A DNA stretch of 64,000 bases from Natranaerobius thermophilus JW/NM-WN-LF (GTDB taxonomy: Bacteria > Bacillota > Natranaerobiia > Natranaerobiales > Natranaerobiaceae). The stretch lies in NCBI RefSeq assembly GCF_000020005.1, contig NC_010718.1, positions 315,001-379,000 on the forward strand. Direction: 5' to 3'. Below the pieces are notes generated by a model. That model did no database searches, had not been told where the DNA came from, and was given only the letters and a program-made list of their open reading frames with translations. Every line of letters starts with the position of its first letter. Position 1 is the stretch's first letter. A program made the position numbers and the translations under genes. Below, in pieces: positions 26,251 through 42,929 of this stretch.

Positions 26251-26373
26251 TAATTACACCTCCACTCAGGAATTTTATTCAATATAATACTATGTCATTT
26301 TTAATCAAGAATTGATTATTAACTTCACTAAAATATATATTAATACATTATATGTTGTAAGGAGGTGAATAAC

Positions 26374-29382: not shown

Positions 29383-30117
29383 TTAATATACAAGATCTCC
29401 TGATAAAAATTGTTTTGTAACTTTATGCTTTGGATTAGTAAAAAACTCGTCTTTATCGTTTATTTCCACTATTTTACCTTTATAAAGTAAACTGACTTTA
29501 GTTGCCAGTCTTTTAGCCTGAAATACATTATGAGTGACCATTACGACAGTTGCATTAAATTCATTTCTATAGTCTGCAATCATGTCTTCAATGATTTTTA
29601 CATTGGCAGGATCTAAGTTTGAAGTTGGTTCATCAAGGAGTATTACTTCAGGATTAAAAATTAACGCTCTGGCTAATGATACTCTTTGAGCTTCTCCACC
29701 TGATAATTTATCAGCTCTTTGATTTTTTAATTGTGTTAACCCTAGTTTATTAATGATTTTTTCTACTCTTTGGGAATCATAGTTTTGCTTTCTGATTTTT
29801 AGAGGATAAATAATATTTTGATATACTGAACTAGTCATTAAATAAGGCCTTTGAAAAACTGTGGTAACTTTTCGTCGAGTATGCAAATCAGGTAAGCTGT
29901 CCTTATTATATACCTTACCTAGAAAATGTACTTCTCCACTGTCAGTGTGTTCAATAAAATTCAAAATACGCAGTAATGTACTTTTCCCTGCACCGCTTGG
30001 ACCAACTAAACCTAAAATTTCACCTTTACGGATAGTTAGGCTATCGATATCTAGCACAGTTTTATCACTATAGGTCTTAGAAATATTTTGTAGATTATAT
30101 ATCACTTTATCAGTCAC
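29383..30117 (-). CDS. tupC: Tungstate ABC transporter ATP-binding protein
   Basis: ATPase that powers tungstate uptake. Walker A is GPSGAGKSTLL, the signature KLSGGEAQRVSLA and Walker B VILLDEPTSNLDP. The 245 residues lack the C-terminal regulatory domain of molybdate ModC, as in TupC. GTG 30117 lies about ten bases after AAGGAAG; an in-frame TTG at 30123 is closer. Either start overlaps the tupB stop. Substrate is inferred from the binding protein encoded in the same operon. Confidence 0.9.
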   Translation of the reverse strand: MTDKVIYNLQNISKTYSDKTVLDIDSLTIRKGEILGLVGPSGAGKSTLLRILNFIEHTDSGEVHFLGKVYNKDSLPDLHTRRKVTTVFQRPYLMTSSVYQNIIYPLKIRKQNYDSQRVEKIINKLGLTQLKNQRADKLSGGEAQRVSLARALIFNPEVILLDEPTSNLDPANVKIIEDMIADYRNEFNATVVMVTHNVFQAKRLATKVSLLYKGKIVEINDKDEFFTNPKHKVTKQFLSGDLVY

Positions 30118-30814
30118 GGCCAATCAACTTCCTTTTTTGAAAATGTAGCATGATAAAATTAACAATGAAAGTTATAGTTAAAAGAATTAACCCAAAACTC
30201 ATGGCAAGTCCAAAATTACCTTGTCTTGTTTCTAGAACAATGGCAGTTGTAAGGACCCTGGTTTTACCTGCAATATTTCCTCCCACCATCATAACTGCAC
30301 CAACTTCTGATATAATAGCCCCAAAACCTGCAATAACAGATACTAAAACTCCGAGTCTTGCTTCTTTAACTGTTGCCCAAAGGATTTGACGTCTAGTAGC
30401 TCCGAGAGCTTTTAGTTGGAGCAAAAGATTTTGATTAACTCCCATAACGGCAGTCATAGTGAAACCTGCTACTAATGGAAAAGATATGACAGATTGAGCA
30501 ACAATCATGGCTCTTGTCGTATATAACCACTCCAAGGAACCAAAAGGGCCAACATTTGAGAATAAGATGAAAACAAATAAGCCAATGACTACGGGTGGAA
30601 AACCCATGCCAGTATATAAAAGAGCAACCACCAGATGTTTACCAGGAAAATTAGTCAAACCAAGAAAAGCACCTAATGGTATCCCAATTATGGCAGCAAT
30701 TAAAAGAGCTATTCCTGATACCATCATTGAAACTGAAATTATATTCATCACATAAGGGTCAAAACTGATTAATAACTCTATAGCTTCTGAAAGTCCGGAT
30801 ATAAATGCATCCAT
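30110..30814 (-). CDS. tupB: Tungstate ABC transporter permease
   Basis: Inner-membrane channel of 234 residues with five or six helices. The EAA loop, which contacts the ATPase, reads QLKALGATRRQILWATVKEA. The GPFGSLEWLYTTRAMIVAQS segment is typical of TupB. It is encoded 27 bases after tupA and overlaps tupC, forming the usual tupA-tupB-tupC order. Confidence 0.92.
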   Translation of the reverse strand: MDAFISGLSEAIELLISFDPYVMNIISVSMMVSGIALLIAAIIGIPLGAFLGLTNFPGKHLVVALLYTGMGFPPVVIGLFVFILFSNVGPFGSLEWLYTTRAMIVAQSVISFPLVAGFTMTAVMGVNQNLLLQLKALGATRRQILWATVKEARLGVLVSVIAGFGAIISEVGAVMMVGGNIAGKTRVLTTAIVLETRQGNFGLAMSFGLILLTITFIVNFIMLHFQKRKLIGRD

Positions 30815-30841
30815 ATTGTCCCTCCATAAAAGTATGAGTGT

Positions 30842-31678
30842 CTAGTCGGTATTCGGAAAAAATAAAGGTTGGCCGTACTCTTCAATTCCAAACTCGGAAA
30901 TTTTTTGCTGAATATCATCTCTCACAAAGAATTCTACCAGCTCATTAGCTGCTTCGTAATTAACATTTTCATGGGTGTCAGGATTTACTGGGATAATTCC
31001 GTACGGGTTTGTAAGCATATCATCATCTTCAAAGACAATTTGGAGATTTTCTATACTATCTTCCATAGAAAGAAAAGTCCCTCTATCTGAAATACTATAA
31101 GCTCTCATTTCGTTAGCCGCAATTAAAGTATCTCCCATACCTTGACCTAAGGAATCATACCATTCTTTTCCCTCAATGTCTAATTGGAACTCTTCCCAAA
31201 GGGTGGTCTCTTTTACATGAGTCCCAGATTTATCTCCTCTTGAGCTAAAGGTGGAATCTCCTTCTTTTCCTATCTGATAGATTAAAGACATTGCTTCGTC
31301 TAAATCATTGGCTTCTGAAACTTTCGCTGGATCCTCTGTAGGTCCCAAGATCACGAAATCATTGTACATTACAGGAAAACGTTCAGTCCCGTAACCATCG
31401 TTAACGAATTCTTTTTCCAGTTCCTTTGCATGAACAAGTAAAATGTCCGCATCACCACTTCGTCCAATTTCTAAAGCCTGTCCAGTCCCAACAGTTATAA
31501 CATCCACTTCATAACCTGTTTCGTCTCCAAAGATTGGCAACAATTCATCTAATAATCCCGAATCTTCAGTACTGGTTGTAGTTGCCATAGTTAATACCGA
31601 TGTTTCATCTTCAGAACATCCAATTAAAGTTAGAGTTAATGTTAATCCCAAAATCAAAGCTAGTGTTTTTTGTAACAT
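30842..31678 (-). CDS. tupA: Tungstate-binding lipoprotein
   Basis: Extracellular substrate-binding protein for tungstate. A signal peptide (LALILGLTLTLTLIGC) ends in a good lipobox with cysteine 20 or so. The mature N-terminus LTMATTTSTEDSGLLDELLP carries the TTTS-type motif and GLL of TupA, which separates it from ModA. Further family segments include ADILLVHAKELEKEFV and SRGDKSGTHVKE. ATG 31678 lies nine bases after GAGGTG; the frame extends upstream without a signal. Tungstate rather than molybdate is preferred from family motifs. Confidence 0.92.
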   Translation of the reverse strand: MLQKTLALILGLTLTLTLIGCSEDETSVLTMATTTSTEDSGLLDELLPIFGDETGYEVDVITVGTGQALEIGRSGDADILLVHAKELEKEFVNDGYGTERFPVMYNDFVILGPTEDPAKVSEANDLDEAMSLIYQIGKEGDSTFSSRGDKSGTHVKETTLWEEFQLDIEGKEWYDSLGQGMGDTLIAANEMRAYSISDRGTFLSMEDSIENLQIVFEDDDMLTNPYGIIPVNPDTHENVNYEAANELVEFFVRDDIQQKISEFGIEEYGQPLFFPNTD

Positions 31679-31708
31679 GATTGTAATCACCTCATTACTA
31701 TAAGCTAA

Positions 31709-31771
31709 CGCTATGTCGTGACAAACATAGCGCATGATAATTATTCTATATAAAAATTTAAAATCCTGCAA
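31709..31771 (-). promoter_or_regulatory. tupA promoter and ModE-like operator 1
   Basis: On the minus strand TTGCAG and TAGAAT are 17 bases apart (31743-31771). Just downstream lies the perfect palindrome CGCTATGT-N8-ACATAGCG (31709-31732). Two near copies precede or follow the ModE-like gene region. The site suits repression by the ModE-like protein when metal oxyanion is plentiful. Confidence 0.8.
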
Positions 31772-31901
31772 TTTTTATAATTAACTATATTAAAATTTTT
31801 GTAAAAATATGTTGTAATGATAAACTAGATCAACAAATTTTTGGAGGATACTTTTTGTTAATTGAATTGATCACATGATATTATATACTAGGGGTGTAAA
31901 A

Positions 31902-32252
31902 ATGAAAATTAAATTTAAGCTTTGGGTAGAAAACAATGATGGTGAATTGATAATTGGGGAAGGTTTACTTAAATTACTTTTAGCAATAAAGGAAACAGGT
32001 TCTATAAGTAAAGCTTCCGAAAAACTAAATATGTCATATCGCACAGCGTGGGGAAGATTAAAAAAAGTAGAAGATAGACTTAACTGTAAATTGATTGAGA
32101 AAAAATATGGTGGGGAAAGTGGTGGAGGGACTACTCTTACTGAAAAAGGAGATATACTGCTAAAAAACTATGATGAGCTATACCACAAAACTGAGAATTA
32201 TGTACAAGAACAATTTGAGGAATTTTTAGATTCTAATTTTTTTAAGGACTAG
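31902..32252 (+). CDS. ModE-like molybdate/tungstate regulator, DNA-binding domain only
   Basis: A 116-residue winged helix-turn-helix protein like the N-terminal domain of ModE: IGEGLLKLLLAIKETGSISK, then ASEKLNMSYRTAWGRLKKVE and GGGTTLTEKGDILLKNYDEL. It lacks the C-terminal molbindin domains that bind the oxyanion in E. coli ModE. A separate Mop protein is encoded at 40,266, so sensing may be divided between two proteins. ATG 31902 follows GGGGTG. It is divergent from tupABC and close to three palindromes that are likely its operators. Confidence 0.88.
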   Translation: MKIKFKLWVENNDGELIIGEGLLKLLLAIKETGSISKASEKLNMSYRTAWGRLKKVEDRLNCKLIEKKYGGESGGGTTLTEKGDILLKNYDELYHKTENYVQEQFEEFLDSNFFKD

Positions 32253-32348: not shown

Positions 32349-32372
32349 CGATATGTCAACACAGACATAACG
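32349..32372. promoter_or_regulatory. ModE-like operator 2
   Basis: CGATATGT-N8-ACATAACG matches operators 1 and 3 in half-sites and spacing, with two arm differences. It lies about 100 bp after the ModE-like gene, 340 bp before the ECF operon. No nearby promoter is clear. Confidence 0.7.
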
Positions 32373-32629: not shown

Positions 32630-32664
32630 CGCTATGTACAACAAAACATATCGCATGGTATAAT
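32630..32664 (+). promoter_or_regulatory. ECF operon promoter with ModE-like operator 3
   Basis: CGCTATGT-N8-ACATATCG (32630-32653) is the third copy of the palindrome. A TATAAT box (32659-32664) lies just after it and TGTACA (32635-32640), 18 bases upstream, could be the -35 within the operator. Binding would block the promoter of the operon that begins at 32713. Confidence 0.75.
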
Positions 32665-32712: not shown

Positions 32713-33858
32713 ATGTTTAAATTATTTAAAAGTTTTGTTAAAATGTTTGTCATTTTATCTTTGTTAGTTGTTTTAACTGGATGTGGAGGGGAAGATATGA
32801 CTGATCAAAAAGAGGATAGTGCAAATGGAGAAGTTGCCGATGAATACCCGGGAGAAAAGGATGTAATCACAATTGTTTGTGAAGAAGATGGAGAGTTTGA
32901 GTTTAGCGTAGAAGAGTTGATGGAGCTAAAATCAGTAACAGAAGACATAGTTAGAACAGATGATGACGGTGAAATCGAGGATGAGTATCCAATTAAAGGA
33001 ACATTATTTAAAGATCTATTAGCATTAATAGATAAAGACAGTGATAATTTAGATGCCATTAGATTAACAGCCGGTGATGGTTATTCAGTTAAAGTACCAG
33101 ATGAAATTTTAGAGAATAGGGATGTTATTCTTGCTTATGAAATTGATAATGAACCCTTGCATGAAGATACAAGACCAATTAGGGCATTTATTCCTGAAGA
33201 AGAAGCAATGTATTGGGTTAGTAATCTGGTAGAGATAGAGTTAGTTGGCTATGATGCTGAAATTAGTGACCAAGAAGCTTCTACACTAGAAGAAATTAAC
33301 TTTTTAGAGACTTTGGTATTAGAATTAGATGAGATTGATTATGAAGGCGAAGATGAAGGTAAAGCTGTTAAAACATCAGACTTATTTTCAGATTTAGATA
33401 CAACCCAGGACGTCTACTTACTGGCTTCAGATGGATTTGACAAAAATGAAGAGTATAAAACTTTTATCGATGCTTATATTTTAACCGAAGGAGATAACAC
33501 GCCTGCTTTTAGGTCTCCAGAACTCCCTCGGGGGATGCATGTTAGAGACCTAGTTTGGATTTTAACAGGTGAAACTGGCTTCTTCTCAGTAGAACAAGGA
33601 ATGGAAAAATTTGAAGAGATGTCAGTAGAAGATGATACGGGTGTATCTTTAAAAGATTTAGTGGACAAGTTTGGCCTTTCTGAATCTGACAAATATGAAC
33701 TTGAGGCAATTGACGGATATTCCGTGGAAATAGATCGTGAAGATTTATCTTCAGGTATTGTTTACATTAGAGATAGTGGAGAAGTTTCATCAGCTTTTGA
33801 TGGGCTTCCAAGAAGTAAAGCCGTAAAAGACCTATTATCTATACGACCAGTAAAGTAA
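32713..33858 (+). CDS. Lipoprotein with repeated molybdopterin-domain-like modules
   Basis: Predicted surface lipoprotein of 381 residues, with signal VILSLLVVLTGC and cysteine 24. After an acidic linker come about three modules resembling the sulfite-oxidase-type molybdopterin-binding domain (PF00174). The best (about 50-178) reads FSVEELMEL, IKGTLFKDLLALI, LTAGDGYSVKVP, DVILAYEIDNEPL and YWVSNLVEIEL. The others have ASDGFD near 242 and AIDGYSVEI near 335. The first-module pattern of DGYS, bulky acidic turn and YE-NG/NEPL is typical of the family. The conserved cofactor-coordinating cysteine is not seen, so it is more likely a binding protein than an enzyme. It heads the ECF operon. Confidence 0.75.
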   Translation: MFKLFKSFVKMFVILSLLVVLTGCGGEDMTDQKEDSANGEVADEYPGEKDVITIVCEEDGEFEFSVEELMELKSVTEDIVRTDDDGEIEDEYPIKGTLFKDLLALIDKDSDNLDAIRLTAGDGYSVKVPDEILENRDVILAYEIDNEPLHEDTRPIRAFIPEEEAMYWVSNLVEIELVGYDAEISDQEASTLEEINFLETLVLELDEIDYEGEDEGKAVKTSDLFSDLDTTQDVYLLASDGFDKNEEYKTFIDAYILTEGDNTPAFRSPELPRGMHVRDLVWILTGETGFFSVEQGMEKFEEMSVEDDTGVSLKDLVDKFGLSESDKYELEAIDGYSVEIDREDLSSGIVYIRDSGEVSSAFDGLPRSKAVKDLLSIRPVK

Positions 33859-33893
33859 CTATTAGAAAGTAGTTTAGTGAAAGGTGGGATAGA

Positions 33894-34445
33894 ATGGCTG
33901 CAATTAATACGATACTAAAAAGATTTTCCATATTTGATTTAATCGTCATATCTTTGATGGCTGGTTTGGGACTTGCTACAAAACCCGTTATTGTTCCTTT
34001 AGCCCATATTATTACAGGGCCCTTGTTCATACCTGGTGGTGTTGTGGCCGGTGGTTTTTACATGATGTGGATTGTAATAGGTGCAGGTCTTGTAGGTAAG
34101 TTAGGGACAGCTACATTAATTGCAGCTGTTCAGGCTATAGTCATCATGGCAATTGGTTTTTTGGGAACCCACGGATTTATGAGCCTATTCACATATATAT
34201 TACCAGGTCTAGCAGTAGATTTAATATTCTTAGTTTCGAGACATAGAGGATGCTGTATTGGTTGTTGCTTTGTGGCCGGGATAGCTGCCAATATTAGCGG
34301 GACTTTTCTGGTAAACCTGGTCTTTTTTAGGCTGCCCTTTATTCCATTGGTACTAAGTTTATCGGCAGCTTCTTTATCTGGAGGACTTGGAGGAATTATA
34401 GCCAACGCAGTAGTAAAACAGTTTAAAAGTAAACTTCAGATATAA
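33894..34445 (+). CDS. ECF transporter substrate-specific (S) component
   Basis: A small membrane protein of 183 residues with about six helices, the size and shape of an ECF S-component. Motifs include AGLGLATKPVIVPLAHIITG, PGGVVAGGFYMMWIV and SLSGGLGGIIANAVV. It confers substrate choice on the ECF complex encoded by ecfA1, ecfA2 and ecfT farther down the operon. A cysteine group (HRGCCIGCC) in one loop is notable. I cannot assign it to a known vitamin; the operon context suggests a molybdenum or tungsten cofactor-related substrate. ATG follows AAAGGTGGG. Confidence 0.8.
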   Translation: MAAINTILKRFSIFDLIVISLMAGLGLATKPVIVPLAHIITGPLFIPGGVVAGGFYMMWIVIGAGLVGKLGTATLIAAVQAIVIMAIGFLGTHGFMSLFTYILPGLAVDLIFLVSRHRGCCIGCCFVAGIAANISGTFLVNLVFFRLPFIPLVLSLSAASLSGGLGGIIANAVVKQFKSKLQI

Positions 34446-34472
34446 GCTGACACAAGTATAAGGAGGGATTCA

Positions 34473-36020
34473 ATGCTGATATTAGACAAAAAAATAAACT
34501 GGAATATAAAACGGTATAAAAAACTTGTTGTTGTTGTCATTATTATTCCAATTATTTTCTCTCTATTATTTTTAGGATGCAGTAGAGATGACACTTCTCA
34601 AGAAGAGAGTAAGGACATTGACTATATACAACCTTTAGAGATAGTAGGTGATGTAGAAGATTTTGTTTCGATTGAAAATATAAATGATATATCTGACACT
34701 GTAAGCCTCGAACACAGAGAAGAAGAATTAGAAGCATTACCATTAAATAAGCTGCTGGACAAATCACAACCTTATACTGAAGATTTTAAGGTTCTTTATG
34801 TTAGTCATGACGGATTCAGTGCCTCTATATCAAGTGATAATTTAGATGAATGTTATATTGCATTTACGCAGGAAAATGGTTGGGAAGCTATCAATAATAA
34901 CCACCCCGTAAGCAGCAATATCAAGGATATTGAAAGTATTGCAGTGGTTGCTAATAATTTATCCCTTGAAGATGGCTTCAATATCATAAAACCAGGAGAA
35001 AATATAACTAGCATTTCTCCGGGTGAGATATACAAAAATGGATATCATGTTTCAACTATGTACAGAGGGAGTTCAAGTGTGAGTCAAAATGGTGAAGACT
35101 TAGAAGCCAGTACTTTTAATCGAAAGAAAATAATTGATATTGAGAACTACGTAACCCTTGATGATAGCGATGAAATTATTGTAGTTGGAAAAAAAGGTGA
35201 AGTAGAAAATTATCGACAAGATGGTACCTTTGTTCTTAATAAAAATAATATTGGTTATATGGCTGGAGATGATATAGAAATCGATCAGGCTGCAGGAATC
35301 GTATTAGACCCCCCTGACAAAATGATTACAGAGGTTTACCATGATTCCAAGGAGCTGTTAACCCAAGATGAACAAGTACTGCTTATTTTAATAGACGGCT
35401 TGGGTTATCATCAGTATGAATATGCAATCGACAATGGGTATGCGCCATTTTTAAAGGAACTCCCTGCTCCAGAGAAAGCCATGGTGACATATCCCCCGGT
35501 AACACCAGTTAATGTGGCATCATCTTTAACAGGAGAGCTTCCTCATATTAATGGTGTATACAAAAGAGGGATTAGGCGCACAGAAGTTCCTACAATTTTT
35601 GGATATTGTGAAGATCACGGGAAGAAATCAACGGCTATTATAGGTCCTAAGGGAACAATAGAGTTGGAAATTGATCCAATACTATCTATGGATGGGAACG
35701 ATGATGGGAGTACTGATTATGAAAAAACTGAAAATGCTTTAAATGAAATGTCAAAAGACTATGATCTAATGTTTGTTCACTACAAAGATGTTGATATAGT
35801 TGGACACGATTATGGCGATATGGCTGAAGAGACTATGGAAGCTATAGCCTGGAATGATAAACTTGTAGAAGAACTGGTAACCACTTGGGAAGGTAAAGTA
35901 ATTATCTATGCCGATCATGGCATGCATGAAACCGAGGAAGGTGGAGATCACAATTCACTAATGACTGAAGATATGTTTATGCCTTACTGGAAATTTGATG
36001 GAGGTGAAATTAATGACTAA
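34473..36020 (+). CDS. Exported phosphodiesterase/phosphatase with molybdopterin-domain-like N-terminus
   Basis: A lipoprotein-like export signal (LLFLGCSRDD) is followed by a module at about 60-150 resembling PF00174 (LPLNKLLD, VSHDGFSASIS, ENGWEAINN). The C-terminal half (300-510) is an alkaline-phosphatase-superfamily phosphodiesterase. Metal ligands can be read in LILIDGLGYH, the active-site region YPPVTPVNVASSLTG, VHYKDVDIVGHDYG, YADHGMH and GGDHN. Such enzymes cleave nucleotide pyrophosphates or phosphate esters outside the cell. Fusion to the same module as its neighbours suggests it acts on the bound ligand before import. The gene overlaps the next by eight bases. Confidence 0.8.
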   Translation: MLILDKKINWNIKRYKKLVVVVIIIPIIFSLLFLGCSRDDTSQEESKDIDYIQPLEIVGDVEDFVSIENINDISDTVSLEHREEELEALPLNKLLDKSQPYTEDFKVLYVSHDGFSASISSDNLDECYIAFTQENGWEAINNNHPVSSNIKDIESIAVVANNLSLEDGFNIIKPGENITSISPGEIYKNGYHVSTMYRGSSSVSQNGEDLEASTFNRKKIIDIENYVTLDDSDEIIVVGKKGEVENYRQDGTFVLNKNNIGYMAGDDIEIDQAAGIVLDPPDKMITEVYHDSKELLTQDEQVLLILIDGLGYHQYEYAIDNGYAPFLKELPAPEKAMVTYPPVTPVNVASSLTGELPHINGVYKRGIRRTEVPTIFGYCEDHGKKSTAIIGPKGTIELEIDPILSMDGNDDGSTDYEKTENALNEMSKDYDLMFVHYKDVDIVGHDYGDMAEETMEAIAWNDKLVEELVTTWEGKVIIYADHGMHETEEGGDHNSLMTEDMFMPYWKFDGGEIND

Positions 36021-36525
36021 AAAGGTTTTAGCTGCAACGGCGGTACTTATTGTAATAGTGGTGGTATTTGCCTATTTAAATGCTGCAGAAAGTGAAGACA
36101 GGTTACAAAGTCAAAGGGAAGCTGAAATTTATCTAAAATCTGATGGAGAAGATATTGCCACTGTAGAGTTTGAGGATATTTTAGAACTCGATGAGCATGA
36201 ATTTGAAGAAACTTTAAGAAGCAGTGATAGTCCTGATAGGGATAATATGTATACTGGTATTTTAATGAAGGATTTAATTGAGGAATATGACATTTCTTTA
36301 TCAGACTCTGAACAGGTTGTAACTAGAGCCGCTGACGGCTATACCGTTGCCTTAACCCCGGATGAGGTACTTGATGAAGAAAATGTATATATTGTGTACA
36401 AAGTTAACGGGGAACCCCTTTCACCAAAAGAAGAAGGAGGATCAGGTCCTTATCAGGTAATTATCCGCCAGGATGAGTTTGGACAGCGGTGGAATAAATT
36501 TTTAATGGAGATTGATGTAAATTGA
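36013..36525 (+). CDS. Membrane-anchored molybdopterin-domain-like protein
   Basis: An N-terminal helix (KVLAATAVLIVIVVVFAYL) anchors or exports the protein of 170 residues. One PF00174-like module fills the rest: VEFEDILELDEHEFEETL, YTGILMKDLIEEY, TRAADGYTVALTPDEVL, VYIVYKVNGEPLS and FGQRWNKFLMEIDV. These match the sulfite oxidase-type fold well. The catalytic cysteine of true oxidoreductases is not seen. ATG 36013 follows GGAGGTG and overlaps the phosphodiesterase stop; its own stop overlaps ecfA1. Confidence 0.78.
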   Translation: MTKKVLAATAVLIVIVVVFAYLNAAESEDRLQSQREAEIYLKSDGEDIATVEFEDILELDEHEFEETLRSSDSPDRDNMYTGILMKDLIEEYDISLSDSEQVVTRAADGYTVALTPDEVLDEENVYIVYKVNGEPLSPKEEGGSGPYQVIIRQDEFGQRWNKFLMEIDVN

Positions 36526-37208
36526 GTTTTCCTGTCGAGATAAATAATCTTGGCTTCAGGTTCCCCAGTAACAGCAGTGATTTATTACAAAATATCAACC
36601 TAAAGGTCAAAGAAGGAGAAGTACTGGCAATTGTAGGCCTTAGTGGATGCGGGAAAAGTACCTTGTGTTACTGTATTAGCGGTATTATTCCTTTAATAAA
36701 ACAAGGAGTTATGGAAGGGGAAGTATTAATTAATGGTAGATCCACACAGGAATTAAGTTTATCACAAATAGCTACTAATTTGGGGATCGTTTTTCAAAAT
36801 CCGGAAACCCAGTTGTTTTCACCTACCGTTGAGGATGAGATTGCTTTTGGACCAGAAAATTTATGTTTTGCAAGAGATGCAATAGAAAAAAGGGTTGATG
36901 AATCCCTTAAAAAAGTAGGAATGGAACAACAAAGATACAAAAATCCTCATCATCTTTCTGGAGGACAAAAGCAATTAATAGCTCTAGCCTCTGTTTTAAG
37001 CTTGAATCCTAAAATACTAATTTTTGATGAAGCCATGTCCAAATTAGATCCTGATGGTAAAAAAATGATCAAAGATTTAATTATTGATCTAAAGAATGAA
37101 GGAAGAACAATTATTATGGTTGAGCATGATATGGCTAATCTAAATATAGCTGATAGAGTGAAACTTTTAGATGGTGGGAAACTGACTGATTTTACAGGAA
37201 GTTTATAA
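36522..37208 (+). CDS. ECF transporter ATPase A1
   Basis: One of two ATPases that drive the ECF transporter. Walker A is GLSGCGKSTLC, the Q-loop FQNPETQLFSPTVEDEIAFG is the ECF hallmark, and the signature is LSGGQKQLIAL. Walker B is ILIFDEAMSKLDP, with alanine-methionine where most have PTS or PTN. A switch histidine follows in VEHDM. TTG 36522 overlaps the stop of the previous gene. It lacks the long C-terminal domain of some EcfA proteins. Confidence 0.88.
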   Translation: MSFPVEINNLGFRFPSNSSDLLQNINLKVKEGEVLAIVGLSGCGKSTLCYCISGIIPLIKQGVMEGEVLINGRSTQELSLSQIATNLGIVFQNPETQLFSPTVEDEIAFGPENLCFARDAIEKRVDESLKKVGMEQQRYKNPHHLSGGQKQLIALASVLSLNPKILIFDEAMSKLDPDGKKMIKDLIIDLKNEGRTIIMVEHDMANLNIADRVKLLDGGKLTDFTGSL

Positions 37209-37213
37209 CTTAA

Positions 37214-37258
37214 GAACCAGTCGTCACGTATTCTAGTGACTTTAGTCATGAGAGGTTC
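37214..37258 (+). other. Structured spacer between the two ECF ATPase genes
   Basis: GAACC (37214-37218) pairs with GGTTC (37254-37258), and inside GTCAC (37223-37227) pairs with GTGAC (37236-37240). It is the only sizeable gap in an otherwise overlapping operon. It may tune the expression ratio of the two ATPases; no T-tract follows, so it is not a terminator. Confidence 0.4.
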
Positions 37259-37284
37259 AAAAACTCTAATAGGTATTGTTAGGG

Positions 37285-37971
37285 GTGATAAAGCTGATTA
37301 GAGTTGATAATGTAAGCTATAGTTATAATGGTACAGAACAGGTTTTAGATGGGATGAATTTGACTCTTTCTGATGGTAAATTGACTGCTTTAATAGGTGC
37401 TAACGGAAGTGGTAAAACCACCCTGGGAAAATTAATGGCGGGGGTTTTACAACCAACTTCAGGACAAGTATTAATTGACGATAAAGATACCAGAGAAATG
37501 TCCCTCGGAGAAATTGGAAAAAGAATAGGTTATCTATTTCAAGAACCAGACAGACAAATATTTGCTCCAACTGTGGAAGAAGAGCTGTCCTTTGTATTAA
37601 AAGTCAGAGGGTTCTCAGATAATGAAATAAGTGAATTGGTAAATGACATGTTGTCCTTGTTTCACCTGGATCATTTAAGGTCTAGTTTTCCCTTTTATTT
37701 AAGTAAGGGAGAGAAACAGCGCCTTGCTCTAGCCTCAATACTAATTAATAAACCTGATTTTTTAATTTTAGATGAACCAACAACAGCTTTAGATATAAAA
37801 CGTAAGTCTGAACTTTTGGAAATATTAAAGAAGCTTTTAGATAACGATGTTGGTATGCTGATTATAAGTCATGATTACGAATTTGTTACTCAATATGCTG
37901 ATAGGATTATTAAGATAGCTGGAGGTGAGATTATTAGTGACACACGAACAAGTGCAGAACAATCAATATGA
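37285..37971 (+). CDS. ECF transporter ATPase A2
   Basis: Second ECF ATPase. The N-terminus IRVDNVSYSYNG is typical. Walker A is GANGSGKTTLG, the Q-loop FQEPDRQIFAPTVEEELSF, the signature is degenerate LSKGEKQRLAL, and Walker B is FLILDEPTTALD. The H-loop is IISHDYEF. GTG 37285 is used; AGGGGTG (37281-37287) could alternatively serve a CTG at 37294, which would give the common MIRVDN start. It overlaps ecfT by 35 bases. Confidence 0.88.
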   Translation: MIKLIRVDNVSYSYNGTEQVLDGMNLTLSDGKLTALIGANGSGKTTLGKLMAGVLQPTSGQVLIDDKDTREMSLGEIGKRIGYLFQEPDRQIFAPTVEEELSFVLKVRGFSDNEISELVNDMLSLFHLDHLRSSFPFYLSKGEKQRLALASILINKPDFLILDEPTTALDIKRKSELLEILKKLLDNDVGMLIISHDYEFVTQYADRIIKIAGGEIISDTRTSAEQSI

Positions 37972-38707
37972 TCCCAGGACTAAACTATTTATAGTAATGT
38001 GTCTCTCCAGCTTGGCAGTGTTTCTAGAAGATTTAGTATTGATGACAGGAGTGTTGATTGTAGCCCTTGGTATATCATTTTATTTCCAGAGTGAAGTTCT
38101 AAAGGCAATTTATAAGCTCAGAAAATTTTTGTGGATTTTTGTTGCCATGGTTTTTATTCAAAGTATTTTCACCTCTGGAGGAGAAGAGTTATTTAGTATC
38201 GGTGATATTACTGTTCTTTCCTCCTTAGGGGTTACCAGGGGTATATCCATAATTCTCAGGATTATGATTATACTTGTATCAGCCACTATTATGGGTACTT
38301 CCAGCTCAAGGGATATCGTTCAAGGTCTCTATCAATGGAAAATTCCTTATGAATTAGCGTTTATGGTTGCCATAGCAATAAGATTTTTGCCATTGTTAAA
38401 AGAAGAAGCAGTTGATATAATCACTGCTATTCAGTTACGAGGACTAGAATTAGAAAAAGTCCCATGGGGCAAAAAAATTAAAATTTATTCCTACCTGATA
38501 ATGCCAATGATATCAAGTGTTATCGTGAAATCCAGGGAACTGGCCATAGCCGTAGAAATGAGAGGTTTCAGAGCTTATCCAACTCGGACAAGTTATCGGG
38601 TATTACATTTATCTATAAAAGATTATGCAGTGATGTTTTCTGCAGGTTTGATAACTGCAGCTATATTATCAATTTATTTCGGGGACTTTATTAACTTAGC
38701 AGGGTAA
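37937..38707 (+). CDS. ECF transporter transmembrane component EcfT
   Basis: Membrane scaffold that links the S-component to the ATPases. It has about five helices and the two ARG-type coupling helices: AIQLRGLELEK near 178 and AVEMRGFRAY near 217. The start is GTG 37937, nine bases after GGAGGTG. With a dedicated S-component and two ATPases in one operon, this is a self-contained (group I-like) ECF transporter rather than one sharing a common module. Confidence 0.88.
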   Translation: MTHEQVQNNQYDPRTKLFIVMCLSSLAVFLEDLVLMTGVLIVALGISFYFQSEVLKAIYKLRKFLWIFVAMVFIQSIFTSGGEELFSIGDITVLSSLGVTRGISIILRIMIILVSATIMGTSSSRDIVQGLYQWKIPYELAFMVAIAIRFLPLLKEEAVDIITAIQLRGLELEKVPWGKKIKIYSYLIMPMISSVIVKSRELAIAVEMRGFRAYPTRTSYRVLHLSIKDYAVMFSAGLITAAILSIYFGDFINLAG

Positions 38708-38718
38708 GGGGGTATAAC

Positions 38719-39486
38719 ATGAGAGTACTATCAGTTGCAGGTATTACAGGATCTGGTAAAACAACAATTATTGAAAATATTATTACTGAATTAACAAAAA
38801 GACGGTATTCCGTAGGGTCAATTAAAGAAATTCACTATGAGAAGTTTGCCATTGATGAAGAAGGTACTAATACTGATAGACATTATAAAGCAGGAGCGGA
38901 TCTGGTTACAGCAAGAGGCTATTTTGAAACAGATATTCTATACAAAAAACGTCTATCTGTACAGGATATACTTAGGCAGTATGACCATGATTACGTAGTA
39001 TTAGAAGGTGTTGAGGATTTTTTTGTTCCTAAAATTATATCAGCCCATAATATAGAAGAAATCGAAGCAAAGCTTGATGAAACTGTATTTGCAATCTCCG
39101 GTAGAATCTCTAATGAAATTGAAGAATATCAAGGGATACCAGTGATTAATACAATCACTAATATTGATCAAATGGTAGATTTGATTGAGCAAAAAGTGTT
39201 TCCTGCTCTTCCTAATTTACCTGAAAAATGTTGCGGAACATGTGGATATTCATGCAAGGAATTAACAGGGGAAATTTTAAGGGGTGAGAGGGATAGGAAT
39301 GACTGTCCTATTGGAAGTGAAAATTCAGTTCAACTTAAAGTTGATGGTCATGAAATAGACATGGTTCCTTTTGTACAAGACATACTTAGAAATGCTGTTG
39401 AAGGTGTAGTAAAAGAGTTAGATGGGTACAAGAAAAATGCCAGAATTGAAATAACAATAGGTGATAAAAATGGTACTTCCCGATAA
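38719..39486 (+). CDS. mobB: MobB-like GTPase with C-terminal cysteine cluster
   Basis: Residues 1-165 are a MobB P-loop GTPase (GITGSGKTTIIENII, then DRHYKAGADLVTARGY, YVVLEGVEDF). MobB helps join a nucleotide to molybdopterin. The C-terminus holds CCGTCGYSCKELTGEILRG and a later cysteine in NDCP, a probable Fe-S or metal site found in some anaerobe MobB proteins. It begins 11 bases after ecfT, in the same operon. Its presence is the strongest sign that the ECF transporter deals with molybdenum or tungsten cofactor. Confidence 0.85.
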   Translation: MRVLSVAGITGSGKTTIIENIITELTKRRYSVGSIKEIHYEKFAIDEEGTNTDRHYKAGADLVTARGYFETDILYKKRLSVQDILRQYDHDYVVLEGVEDFFVPKIISAHNIEEIEAKLDETVFAISGRISNEIEEYQGIPVINTITNIDQMVDLIEQKVFPALPNLPEKCCGTCGYSCKELTGEILRGERDRNDCPIGSENSVQLKVDGHEIDMVPFVQDILRNAVEGVVKELDGYKKNARIEITIGDKNGTSR

Positions 39487-40174
39487 TTTCATTAAAAATT
39501 GGCAAATTAAAGATTATGACTTTGTACAACAATTTAAAAGTAAGAAGAATCAAGTACTAAAATTAAAAGTAATTACTAAAAACAATGAAGAACATTTTTT
39601 AGTTTGTAAGTCATTTACTAATTACCGAAAATATTATCAAGAACTCAGCACTCTAAATAAGCTATCAAAGATTGATGCTCCAGTACCAAGACTTCTATAT
39701 AGTTCTAATAAAATAATAATAACAGAATATATTGACGGGTTTTTATTGGTTGATGAATTATTCAAAGGGGGAAATTCTTTAATTAATGAGCTAGGTAAAA
39801 CTCTCGAAAGAGTTTATAATGCATTGGCTGTAGACTCTTATAAAAACAACGTTATTTTAGGGGATATGAATCTGAGAAACTTCATTATTGATAAAAACAA
39901 AAACAAAATTTACAGACTAGATTTTGAATCAGTTGAAAAAGGACATCTATCAAAGGATATTGGTAAATTGTGTGCTTTTTGCATCAGTTATGATCCACCT
40001 TTTACTGACTATAAATTGAACCTAACTAAAGAACTTTTTGATTACTTCAAAAATAGATTTTTACTGTCATCAAGTTTCATAACAAATGAGGTTTTAATTG
40101 AACTATCTAATATTGAAAAGCGCAGAGAAATAGTAGTACCTGAAAAAGTAAAATATAATATATATAAATGGTAG
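39470..40174 (+). CDS. Kinase-fold protein (APH/WaaP-like)
   Basis: A 234-residue protein with a small protein-kinase-like fold. A lysine in HFLVCKSFTNYRKYYQE, the ITEYIDGFLLVDELF hinge, the catalytic loop GDMNLRNFIID and the metal-binding YRLDFES match aminoglycoside-phosphotransferase or WaaP-like kinases. ATG 39470 follows AGGTGA and overlaps mobB by 17 bases, so it belongs to the ECF operon. Its substrate is unknown; phosphorylating an imported small molecule would fit. Codon use and AT content are similar to the upstream genes. Confidence 0.7.
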   Translation: MVLPDNFIKNWQIKDYDFVQQFKSKKNQVLKLKVITKNNEEHFLVCKSFTNYRKYYQELSTLNKLSKIDAPVPRLLYSSNKIIITEYIDGFLLVDELFKGGNSLINELGKTLERVYNALAVDSYKNNVILGDMNLRNFIIDKNKNKIYRLDFESVEKGHLSKDIGKLCAFCISYDPPFTDYKLNLTKELFDYFKNRFLLSSSFITNEVLIELSNIEKRREIVVPEKVKYNIYKW

Positions 40175-40475: not shown

Positions 40476-40783
40476 CTGCCTCACCTCCTGATTTTATGGT
40501 TTCCAAAAAGCAAAAACTTATTTATAATTTAAGGAATCTTTGCTCCATATTGTTCATAACTTTCTTTTCGATGTACTCGTCATATATATAATAAATGAAA
40601 TTTTCAAAAGGGTTATATACGAAAATGTTGAAAACAAATAACAACAGGAATTATTGGTCATTTAGAGTGGAATTATTCAAACTGCAATGTGAGATAAATT
40701 AATTGTATTGGGTAACGAAGATCAAATAAGGGAATTCTTAACTATTGCTGTCCCTACTAATAAAGCTAAAAGGAGAAATCCCA

Positions 40784-41476
40784 ATGAGAATATTTAAAGA
40801 AATTACAATAGAAGTTTTACAGGCTGTGCTTCCTCTGACTATTGTTGTATTTTTGTTACAAGTAGTTGCTTTGTCATCTCCAGCTGAAGAAGTTTTACAA
40901 TTTTTAGTCGGATTGATTTTCGTAGTTTTAGGTTTAATATTATTCCTCGTCGGTATACGCATAGGACTACTTCCTATGGGTGAATCCATTGGAAACTCAA
41001 TTCCGCAAACCGGGAAATTAGGACTTGTTGTATTCTATGCTTTTTTACTAGGTTTTTTAGTGACAGCTGCAGAACCAGATGTCAGGGTGTTAGCTTCTCA
41101 AATAGACATGGTCTCTGATGGTGCTATTCCTCATCATGTATTAATTTATACTGTTGCTATTGGTGTAGGGGTATTTGTATCTCTGTCTATGATTAAAGTG
41201 GTTTTAGACATACCGTTGAAGTATATATTGATTGTTTGCTATATTGGAGTTTTTATTATGTCTGTTTTTACTCCTACTTATTTTGTCCCTATTTCTTTCG
41301 ATGCGGGAGGGGTAACTACAGGTCCATTAACAGCCCCCTTTATCATAGCATTAGGTGTTGGTGTGAGTTCTGTATTAAGCAGCCGAACCACTGCTAATGA
41401 CAACTTTGGTTTTGTTGCATTAGCATCAATTGGTCCGATAATCGGAGTGATGATACTGGGGGTGATTTACGGGTGA
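40784..41476 (+). CDS. DUF1538 membrane protein, first copy
   Basis: A 230-residue membrane protein with about six helices. DUF1538 marks are GLLPMGESIG, FLVTAAEPDVRVLASQID and the ISFDAGGVTTGPLTAPF loop, which looks like a substrate or ion site. Function is not established; the repeated charged loops in the membrane suggest a transporter. ATG 40784 follows AAAGGAG. It overlaps the second copy by four bases. Two PII-like genes follow, implying control by a nitrogen- or nucleotide-type signal. Confidence 0.85.
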   Translation: MRIFKEITIEVLQAVLPLTIVVFLLQVVALSSPAEEVLQFLVGLIFVVLGLILFLVGIRIGLLPMGESIGNSIPQTGKLGLVVFYAFLLGFLVTAAEPDVRVLASQIDMVSDGAIPHHVLIYTVAIGVGVFVSLSMIKVVLDIPLKYILIVCYIGVFIMSVFTPTYFVPISFDAGGVTTGPLTAPFIIALGVGVSSVLSSRTTANDNFGFVALASIGPIIGVMILGVIYG

Positions 41477-42234
41477 GTGAAGTTGTTATTTTTGAAGGCC
41501 TATGGAATACCATTATAGAAGTTTTTATAGCTTTACTTCCATTGATAGCTTTCTTTGCCTACTTTCAATTAGTGTACCTAAAGCTTCCACGAGTGGAAGT
41601 TGCCAACATGGCTAAAGGTGTTATTTTAACTTTTCTTGGTATAGTTTTCTTCTTACAAGGTGTACATGTAGGTTTTTTACCTATTGGAGAATTATTGGGA
41701 CAGGGTTTGGTTCAACATACAGAAAAGTGGTTTGTTATTCCTGTAGGCTTCATTCTAGGAGCTGTGGCAACCTTCGCTGAACCTGCTGTTAGGGCTTTAA
41801 GTGATGAGGTAGAAAAAGTATCTGCAGGATATATTCCACAAATCATATTATTAGTAACTCTGTCATTAGGTGTAGGTTTATCCATTGCTTTGGCAATGAT
41901 TAGGATAATCGTTGGTATACCATTAATGTACTTACTACTTCCAGGATATGGATTGGCTTTGGCCACTACTTTTATTACGAAAGAAAACTTTGTCTCCATT
42001 GCTTTTGACTCTGGAGGAGTAGCTACTGGCCCAATGACGGTTACATTTATTATGGCTTTTTCAGTAGGTGTGGCATCTGAAATTGAAGGTAGAGATCCTT
42101 TGATTGAAGGATTTGGGATGATAGCATTGGTAGCTTTGATTCCGATTTTATCCGTACTAATATTGGGTTTAATTTATTCAAGAAAGGAGAAACAAGATGA
42201 ACGAGACCTTGAATATGAAGAAAAAGAATCATAG
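41473..42234 (+). CDS. DUF1538 membrane protein, second copy
   Basis: Paralogue of the preceding gene, 253 residues. The same motifs recur: GFLPIGELLG, AVATFAEPAVRALSDEVE and IAFDSGGVATGPMTVTF. Together the two probably form a pseudo-symmetric heterodimer, as seen when a fused DUF1538 protein is split. GTG 41473 overlaps the first copy's stop. Its C-terminus is charged and overlaps the first PII-like gene by 38 bases. Confidence 0.85.
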   Translation: MSEVVIFEGLWNTIIEVFIALLPLIAFFAYFQLVYLKLPRVEVANMAKGVILTFLGIVFFLQGVHVGFLPIGELLGQGLVQHTEKWFVIPVGFILGAVATFAEPAVRALSDEVEKVSAGYIPQIILLVTLSLGVGLSIALAMIRIIVGIPLMYLLLPGYGLALATTFITKENFVSIAFDSGGVATGPMTVTFIMAFSVGVASEIEGRDPLIEGFGMIALVALIPILSVLILGLIYSRKEKQDERDLEYEEKES

Positions 42235-42556
42235 TGTAATAGTGACCATAGTAAAAAAAGGGAAAGCCAAAAAGATTTGTCAGGTAGCGAAAGATGCTGG
42301 AGCAAAAGGTGGAACAACATTATTGGCTAGAGGTACTAGTATAAAAGACTTTAGAAAAGTATTTGGTATTTCTATAGATGAACAAAGGGCGGTTGTTTTA
42401 ACTATTGTAAAGCAGGAATTAGAAGATAAAGTATTCGAAGAAATTTTAGATAAATGTGAACTTAATAAACCAGGAACCGGAATTACTTTTATAGTGGATT
42501 TAAAGAAAGTTGATGGTATTGCACACTTGTTAAAGGAGGCTTCACAAAATGACTGA
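42197..42556 (+). CDS. PII-like regulator, first copy
   Basis: A 119-residue protein of the PII/GlnB superfamily: VIVTIVKKGKAKKICQVAKD followed by AGAKGGTTLLARGT, and the C-terminal GTGITFIVDLKKVDGIAHL. The GGTxLxARGT segment resembles the nucleotide-binding B-loop region in PII proteins. PII proteins sense ATP/ADP, 2-oxoglutarate or other small molecules and bind transporters. The gene overlaps the DUF1538 gene and the next PII gene, so it is in the same operon and likely gates that membrane complex. Confidence 0.82.
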   Translation: MNETLNMKKKNHSVIVTIVKKGKAKKICQVAKDAGAKGGTTLLARGTSIKDFRKVFGISIDEQRAVVLTIVKQELEDKVFEEILDKCELNKPGTGITFIVDLKKVDGIAHLLKEASQND

Positions 42557-42929
42557 AAGGTGCAGAGGAAAAGAATGTAAAATTAAATTTGATTTGATAA
42601 TTACTATTGTAAACAAAGGACGATCTAGATTAGTAGTAGAAGCGGCAAAAAATGCTGGAGCTGAAGGGGGTACAGTTCTAGGAGGACGAGGCACGGGAGT
42701 ACGAGAAAAAGCTAAATTACTTGGGATAACTATAGAGCCAGAAAAAGAAATAATACTCACGTTAGTACCACGAGAAGATGCTGAAGATATACTAGATGCT
42801 ATTATTAAGGAAGCTGAACTTAACAAGCCAGGTAAGGGAATTTCTTTTATTTTAGAAGTCAAAAGAGTTGCAGGAATCACCCATTTACTCGATGATGAAT
42901 TAAGGGATAAATTAGAAGATAATCTATAA
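42549..42929 (+). CDS. PII-like regulator, second copy
   Basis: A 126-residue paralogue of the preceding protein. It matches across the length: LIITIVNKGRSRLVVEAAKN, then AGAEGGTVLGGRGTGV, and GKGISFILEVKRVAGITHLL. It starts with a cysteine pair (RCRGKEC) absent from the first copy. Two PII-like proteins mirror the two DUF1538 proteins. The start overlaps the previous stop by eight bases and follows AAAGGAGG. Confidence 0.82.
   Translation: MTERCRGKECKIKFDLIITIVNKGRSRLVVEAAKNAGAEGGTVLGGRGTGVREKAKLLGITIEPEKEIILTLVPREDAEDILDAIIKEAELNKPGKGISFILEVKRVAGITHLLDDELRDKLEDNL

Follow-up and report, generated by a model that had tools for sequence, protein, structure and literature searches.

A putative ECF transporter for uptake of the molybdenum/tungsten pterin cofactor in Natranaerobius thermophilus and its relatives

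The operon at 32713-40174 of the window (the whole stretch of 64,000 nucleotides analysed here) most likely encodes an ECF-type importer of the molybdenum/tungsten pterin cofactor (Moco/Tuco); the substrate is inferred, and no binding or transport data are available. Gene content, folds, catalytic residues, regulators and the phylogenetic profile were computed, and the identity of the substrate bound by S and the reactions carried out by the phosphodiesterase, kinase and MobB proteins are inferences. Cofactor uptake had been proposed in a sequence-only reading of the same DNA, and two lines of evidence which that reading did not foresee, a riboswitch leader in relatives and the loss of moaA, moaC, moeA and mog, agree with it.

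According to the open reading frames and the sequence, nine co-directional genes (+ strand) form the single operon that had been described. It begins with LipoA (32713..33858), an exported lipoprotein with PruR/SUOX-like module(s), followed by S (33894..34445), the predicted substrate-binding ECF component, which was assigned to the PF09819 superfamily (47.8 bits) by profile, alignment and relatives. Then come PDE (34473..36020), an exported NPP-type phosphodiesterase (PF01663) with an N-terminal beta-rich domain, and LipoC (36013..36525), a membrane-anchored exported PruR-like module predicted to bind pterin. The ECF ATPases A1 (36522..37208; TIGR04520, 230 bits) and A2 (37276..37971; TIGR04521, 192 bits), both also matching PF00005, precede the T component of CbiQ fold (37925..38707; PF02361, 106.7 bits). 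With two ECF-type ABC ATPases, a CbiQ-type T and a small membrane S encoded together, the criteria for an ECF transporter are met; profile matches were obtained for all four components that the earlier reading had named, and the transporter gene set is conserved in most of the 77 relatives' loci. The last two genes had been recognised as mobB and a kinase-fold gene, which was upheld: one product (38719..39486; PRK14494 family) is a fusion of a MobB domain (PF03205) and an FeS domain (PF04060), with a P-loop and four Cys that its relatives retain, and the other (39461..40174) is an APH/Bud32-like protein by profiles, whose intact catalytic residues D135, N140 and D154 are invariant (34/34). The roles of both in cofactor handling are inferred.

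Three exported proteins had been thought to carry a module of the sulfite-oxidase fold. Profile searches with PF00174 (Oxidored_molyb; cut-off 24 bits) gave matches in LipoA (35.5 bits, residues 95-178) and LipoC (34.8 bits), and the two proteins resemble each other closely (hhalign 99.3%), whereas the N-terminal part of PDE had no PF00174 match and resembled the other modules only weakly (hhalign probability 36%). The module was therefore confirmed for two proteins and is doubtful in PDE, whose N-terminal domain was dropped as a third SUOX module. Structure prediction, named beforehand as a possible refutation, left the fold standing: the module has a sulfite-oxidase/PruR fold, and the LipoC model (pLDDT 89.5) has PruR as its best fold match, the top Foldseek matches being PruR with TM 0.6-0.75. 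In PruR, a Tyr and a Trp bind pterin (PMC13259868). Y110 and W160 of LipoC are conserved in 69/74 and 60/74 relatives, respectively, and Y124 and W168 of LipoA are invariant (31/31 relatives); the equivalence of the Tyr to the PruR pterin site was derived from sequence alignment, and that of the Trp was inferred. LipoC has no Cys at all, and the Cys residues of LipoA, at 24 (lipobox) and 56, both lie outside the PF00174 match, so that both proteins were ruled out as sulfite-oxidase-family enzymes for want of a Cys ligand to Mo. Judged from sequence and model, LipoA and LipoC meet the criteria for PruR-like proteins (SUOX-like fold, export, absence of the Cys ligand, Tyr and Trp), and pterin binding is inferred. 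Because Moco reportedly does not fit into the binding pocket of PruR (PMC13259868), smaller pterins rather than whole Moco might be their ligands. In PDE, D308, T344, D441, D481, H482 and H493 are invariant among 34 relatives and H445 is conserved in >90%, and the model (pLDDT 91) has Xac NPP as its best fold match; with bimetal Asp/His ligands and a Thr nucleophile, PDE meets the criteria for an NPP-type phosphodiesterase.

The operator CGNTATGT-N8-ACATANCG has three exact matches in the window: at 31709..31732 between the divergent tupA and modE, some 31 bp upstream of the likely start of TupA (31678); at 32349..32372 in the leader region of the operon; and at 32630..32653 directly before its first gene. 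By chance, only 1.3 matches with three or fewer mismatches are expected across the whole window, and a relaxed form of the operator also matches upstream of moaA in E. coli. The first operator is shared with the divergent neighbour (29383..31771, - strand), delimited from open reading frames and sequence and, without profile support, assigned as a probable tupCBA-type tungstate/molybdate ABC transporter. A ModE-type DNA-binding repressor with only the HTH domain is encoded at 31875..32252 (+ strand; TIGR00637, 80.8 bits; PF00126), and the ModE-like operator suspected earlier is thus substantiated. With a ModE protein and palindromic operators before the operon, the criteria for membership in the ModE regulon are met, in the absence of binding data.

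RF01055, the Moco/W-cofactor riboswitch, was counted when it scored above the gathering score as operon leader. It immediately leads the operon in 33 relatives' loci, including 21/23 wide-flank loci of the nearest set; it has no match in this window itself and was not found in the wide-flank near relatives L159 and L141 or in five more distant ones. Eight moaA-less genomes have this leader (G009, G094, G158, G183, G208, G245, G281 and, on contig L162, G250). P3 is present in the G245 riboswitch and absent from that of G094. A contrast of 7/11 moaA-less with 0/18 moaA-positive genomes was withdrawn, the flanks being 1.5 kb; wider loci of the moaA-positive L148 (G282) and L157 (G095) do have RF01055. 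The Moco RNA senses the metal-loaded cofactor (PMC2408646).

Phylogenetic profiles were built by genome searches. Many Clostridia and members of a few further phyla also carry the operon. Analysis of the S neighbourhoods across genomes, proposed earlier as a check, revealed recurrent Moco-related genes, namely moeA, mobA, mod/tup, modE, yqeBC-xdhC, fdhA or aor, the neighbour sets noted being ModABC, TupABC, modE-yqeC-yqeB-xdhC, moeA, fdhA and aor. The refuting case of operon-bearing genomes without any Mo/W enzyme was not encountered, since all 41 S-positive genomes (41/41) match the AOR and/or molybdopterin-oxidoreductase family. The host genome and the majority of S-positive genomes have their own Moco synthesis, and in the host the system would therefore supplement the supply. 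In twelve S-positive genomes, which span nine families and include one single-contig assembly, moaA, moaC, moeA and mog are missing although AOR (11/12) or FdhA is kept; as a control for the MoeA search, all MoaA-positive genomes match MoeA. Among good-quality moaA-less genomes, AOR is present in 8/9 with S versus 4/68 without S (p=2e-7), where seven weak S matches with E above 1e-11 (G021, G057, G188, G192, G225, G248, G253) were counted as S-negative and PF00384 matches in moaA-less S-negative genomes were not counted as Mo enzymes. The four AOR genomes without a clear S are G020, G073, G232 and G248 (remote S-like protein only), and a divergent S near AOR was searched for in the first three and not found; other routes therefore exist. 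In the moaA-less G245, fdhA adjoins S, mobA and a LipoC-like gene. Within one genus, two species with single-contig genomes differ in that G056 has moaA without S and G094 has S without moaA. MoaE (E. coli query) matched only G022 and was unusable for telling which pathway stage is lost. The weak S matches sit mostly in longer, differently organised proteins, and the uncounted PF00384 matches are mostly weaker and in frames of 1100-1200 aa, NuoG/hydrogenase-like as judged by length only.

In the proposed mechanism, a shortage of cofactor or metal would turn synthesis on, through the ModE-type repressor in this genome and, in the majority of near relatives, through the Moco/Tuco riboswitch. Outside the membrane, LipoA and LipoC would bind the pterin cofactor, and PDE may strip the nucleotide off dinucleotide forms (MGD, MCD) or otherwise trim phosphate. 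S with A1-A2-T would move the product inward, where the kinase could re-phosphorylate or trap it; MobB-FeS, aided by MobA in genomes that have it, could pass it on or rebuild the dinucleotide. Since the dependent genomes have lost moeA and mog as well, what is imported most likely already carries its metal.

Import of a metal-free pterin (molybdopterin, its dephospho form or a breakdown product), to be finished by an unknown insertase, would accord with the binding of small reduced pterins by PruR (PMC13259868) and with PDE and kinase acting in outside dephosphorylation and inside re-phosphorylation. However, the absence of moeA and mog leaves the dependent genomes no known metal insertion, and the riboswitch leader senses the loaded form (PMC2408646), so that this explanation is considered unlikely. 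An ECF oxyanion transporter for molybdate or tungstate is far harder to sustain: it would be of no use to genomes that have neither Moco synthesis nor insertion genes, tupABC already adjoins the operon, and the pterin-binding folds and phosphodiesterase would be left unexplained, against which only the ModE-type control and the tup/mod neighbours can be set.

Equally improbable is a thiamin/HMP transporter of YkoE type lying near Moco genes by chance, for which the place of S within the YkoE superfamily (PF09819) speaks. Clustering of S with a known vitamin transporter would have refuted cofactor import, but YkoE (5EDL, the thiamin/HMP S-component) is only a remote match (E=0.03) and the context of its system is missing: no TPP riboswitch was detected in the window or the scanned relatives' loci, a Moco riboswitch leading instead, no YkoF was seen among annotated neighbours, and the Moco gene context recurs. 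Sharing only the superfamily, the operon does not qualify as a YkoE-type system. PruR-like pterin sensing, with the ECF transporter serving to remove a signalling pterin, can hardly be entertained despite the PruR fold, as the operon lacks a DcpA-type GGDEF/EAL or sensor kinase gene, no DcpA-type regulator occurs in it or among the Pfam-scanned neighbours (the PruR-DcpA signalling criterion is not met), and the riboswitch and the profile with cofactor-dependent enzymes would be unexplained.

Moco has generally been regarded as too unstable for trading. In the literature searched, no described membrane transporter for the Mo/W cofactor, ECF or other, was found, and the earlier reading likewise knew of no described uptake system. 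A paper from 2022 asked how Moco crosses membranes and noted that uptake of exogenous Moco had been neither examined nor observed outside C. elegans (PMC9793310), and a 2018 survey left unexplained several hundred prokaryotes with molybdoproteins and no complete Moco pathway (PMC6147048). With some reserve, we favour the operon as the first uptake system for finished, metal-loaded Mo/W-pterin cofactor, explaining part of these "orphan molybdoprotein" genomes: whole anaerobe lineages would have dropped both the synthesis of Moco and the insertion of its metal, and would subsist on cofactor that neighbours release. Both questions become directly testable with a candidate transporter that has its own riboswitch; such a transporter also places Moco among the cofactors shared within microbial communities and is a possible tool for Moco-deficiency research.

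The ECF vitamin transporters (ThiT, RibU, BioY, YkoEDC) have the S, A1, A2 and T architecture in common with the operon and, like its relatives, are led by a riboswitch for the cognate cofactor, TPP or FMN riboswitches leading the ThiT and RibU genes; the operon differs in its separate S subfamily, the Moco/Tuco riboswitch of its relatives, three exported accessory proteins, and MobB and kinase partners. PruR of Agrobacterium and Vibrio, a periplasmic pterin-binding protein (PMC13259868), shares the SUOX-like fold without the Mo-ligating Cys, export and the conserved Tyr and Trp, whereas the operon modules, several in number and in several proteins, sit in a transporter operon rather than beside DcpA/c-di-GMP regulators, and their ligand is inferred. 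PDE has the fold and the catalytic metal and nucleophile residues of Xac NPP and ENPP1, from which it differs by an extra N-terminal domain in many members and by a substrate that is inferred. RF01055 was described upstream of genes for molybdate transporters, Moco synthesis and molybdoenzymes, and the available part of that account mentions no ECF transporter (Regulski et al., 2008; PMC2408646); the same riboswitch leads the operon's relatives. That part also lists, as unexplained exceptions, RNAs of S. wolfei that precede "putative sulphite oxidases" (PMC2408646). These oxidases may be LipoA/LipoC relatives, but the S. wolfei-like locus L047 has no RF01055 match and the link is therefore unproven. 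C. elegans, an animal whose transporter is unknown, acquires the whole cofactor from outside, from its diet (PMC9793310), as is proposed for the operon.

The host genome, that of Natranaerobius thermophilus, comprises 3.19 Mb in three contigs, and the window corresponds to G000:C2:315001-379000. Nine genes at 32713-40174 run in one direction, mostly overlapping or almost abutting. Profile searches assigned PF00174 to the exported proteins LipoA (32713; 35.5 bits) and LipoC (preferred start ATG 36013; 34.8 bits), PF09819 to the ECF substrate component S (33894; 47.8 bits) and PF01663 to the exported phosphodiesterase PDE (34473). The other products matched two ECF ATPases (A1 and A2), a CbiQ-type T component, MobB joined to an FeS domain (MobB-FeS, 38719; PRK14494 family) and an APH/Bud32-like kinase-fold protein (Kin, 39461), so that each member of the full ECF set, MobB and the kinase claimed in the sequence-only reading was recovered in one operon. 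The sulfite-oxidase-like module proposed for three exported products was upheld for LipoA and LipoC, the only PF00174 proteins in the host genome, and not for PDE. Adjoining the operon, 40745-42929 encodes two DUF1538 membrane proteins and then two paralogous small proteins; a 935 aa protein with two ATP-grasp stretches resembling YheC/D is encoded at 26365-29172.

The upstream flank of the operon encodes a DNA-binding protein of the ModE type (31875) and, divergently, a transporter of the tupABC type. Pattern search of the window revealed three exact copies of CGNTATGT-N8-ACATANCG (31709, 32349, 32630), predicted sites which, with the ModE-type protein, support the earlier suggestion of a ModE-like operator. 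The loosened pattern finds a site ahead of E. coli moaA, a known site of ModE action (PMC2408646). No riboswitch was found anywhere in the window. The Moco/tungsten-cofactor (Tuco) riboswitch RF01055 (Rfam) is the operon leader in 33 relatives' loci, including 21/23 wide-flank loci of the nearest relatives, and was detected in 0/5 wide loci of more distant ones. The first gene behind it usually encodes an FMN-binding lipoprotein, LipoA, LipoC or S; the FMN-binding-domain lipoprotein is often immediately adjacent (e.g., L043:193-708), and further genes intervene in L142. Locus L140 carries two copies, one ahead of the operon and one ahead of tupABC. Computationally, the operon leader is a Moco/Tuco RNA or a ModE-type operator. 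The published rule is that the P3 stem marks Moco and its absence Tuco (PMC2408646). The RNA of genome G245, which has FdhA and no AOR, contains P3, and that of G094, which has AOR, lacks it, in agreement with the rule, but these two cases are anecdotal.

S matches were found in 41/299 genomes of the phylum, 34 of them strong (E < 1e-15). Strong-S loci follow the order (FMN-binding lipoprotein)-LipoA-S-PDE-LipoC-A1-A2-T-MobBFeS-(MoeA)-Kin, apart from local losses. The most reduced form, S-MobBFeS-Kin without its own A1/A2/T (L055:4439-6464, L065:9505-11720, L066, L067), suggests S components sharing an energising module encoded elsewhere. A GTDB contig scan yielded 204 relatives, and among the best 80 of these, gene content was counted in 77 loci with a called S gene: LipoC-like genes in 72 (by a loose profile that may take in paralogues), ATPases and T in 60-63, MobB-FeS in 45, PDE in 44, kinase in 35, FMN-binding-like proteins in 28, moeA in 4, fdhA in 2 and aor in 1.

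Several loci depart from this arrangement. ModABC lies downstream of the operon in L051 and L054, and L063 (1886-6329) and L064 have the order ModE-YqeC-YqeB-XdhC-NTPase-methyltransferase-S-A1-A2-T. Parts of this S variant, linked to ModE/YqeC/YqeB/XdhC/NTPase_1/methyltransferase in a selenium-dependent Mo hydroxylase context, occur in L070 and L159. L053 has an FmdE/TrmO context; there, an SLH surface protein with a Shr-like Hb-interacting domain (PF07550; L053:2954-4765) lies upstream of S-A1-A2-T and a TrmO/FmdE fusion. Two S-like genes stand in tandem in L180, and a single S precedes two tandem A-A-T modules in L047 and L048.

The operon, the folds and the intact active sites are established by computation. 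An AlphaFold2 model of LipoC, built from 21 relatives (pLDDT 89.5), best matched PruR pterin-binding proteins in Foldseek searches of the PDB (E down to 6e-7), followed by assimilatory nitrate reductase, sulfite oxidase and YedY-type proteins, so the predicted structure bears out the proposed sulfite-oxidase (SUOX) fold. PruR is a periplasmic SUOX-fold protein without the Mo-ligating Cys that binds reduced pterins aided by Trp and Tyr, the latter at times Phe (PMC13259868). Cys is likewise absent from LipoC, in which the DGY tyrosine is conserved in 69/74 sequences (Phe in 4) and a Trp in 60/74, and in LipoA, clearly homologous to LipoC, both residues are invariant (31/31). PDE has the complete NPP catalytic set and Xac NPP as best fold match; some relatives of ~355 aa wholly lack the N-terminal domain. 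The catalytic residues of Kin and the P-loop residues and four Cys of MobB-FeS are conserved. By inference, LipoA/LipoC would capture the cofactor, PDE would take off a nucleotide or phosphate, the ECF complex would import the product, Kin would trap it in the cytoplasm and MobB-FeS would hand it over.

The operon is associated with cofactor-dependent enzymes in genomes without cofactor synthesis, as determined computationally. The MoaA C-terminal domain is missing in 94/299 genomes, of which 12, from nine families, have strong S (G009, G024, G036, G094, G158, G183, G199, G208, G245, G250, G281, G296). MoaC is missing in all twelve, and MoeA and Mog gave no match in any of them by a search that was positive in every MoaA-positive control. 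AOR is present in eleven; in G245, the remaining genome, a formate dehydrogenase is encoded ~3 kb from S. Among good-quality moaA-less genomes, AOR occurs in 8/9 with S vs 4/68 without (Fisher p=2e-7, uncorrected for relatedness). Absences from G094 are unlikely to reflect missing data, because that genome is 99% complete and assembled in one contig; G056, a single-contig genome of the same genus, encodes MoaA and lacks S. In G245, S, a LipoC-like gene and mobA adjoin fdhA, which is a grouping of a cofactor-dependent enzyme, a nucleotide-adding enzyme and a transporter with no synthesis gene; a mobA-like gene also adjoins fdhA in G250. Four moaA-less genomes (G020, G073, G232, G248) have an AOR-family protein and no clear S, and would either use another uptake route or have AOR-like proteins with a different cofactor.

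The substrate is very probably the Mo/W-pterin cofactor or a close form. A metal-free pterin could be imported instead, but moeA and mog are also gone in the dependent genomes, and import of the metal-loaded form is therefore favoured, though only with moderate confidence. The host itself encodes MoaA, MoaC, MoeA and Mog, together with six PF00384 proteins and five AOR-family matches, and therefore makes Moco and uses Mo/W enzymes; here the operon would supplement the host's own Moco under shortage.

In line with the earlier statement that no uptake system is known to have been described, no Moco transporter was found in the literature searched. Several hundred genomes with molybdoproteins and no complete Moco pathway were reported, for which unknown biosynthetic parts or Mo-independent forms were proposed (Peng et al., 2018; PMC6147048). 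The ECF machinery belongs to a known type; novelty would lie in the substrate, the set of exported pterin-binding proteins and the salvage life-style.
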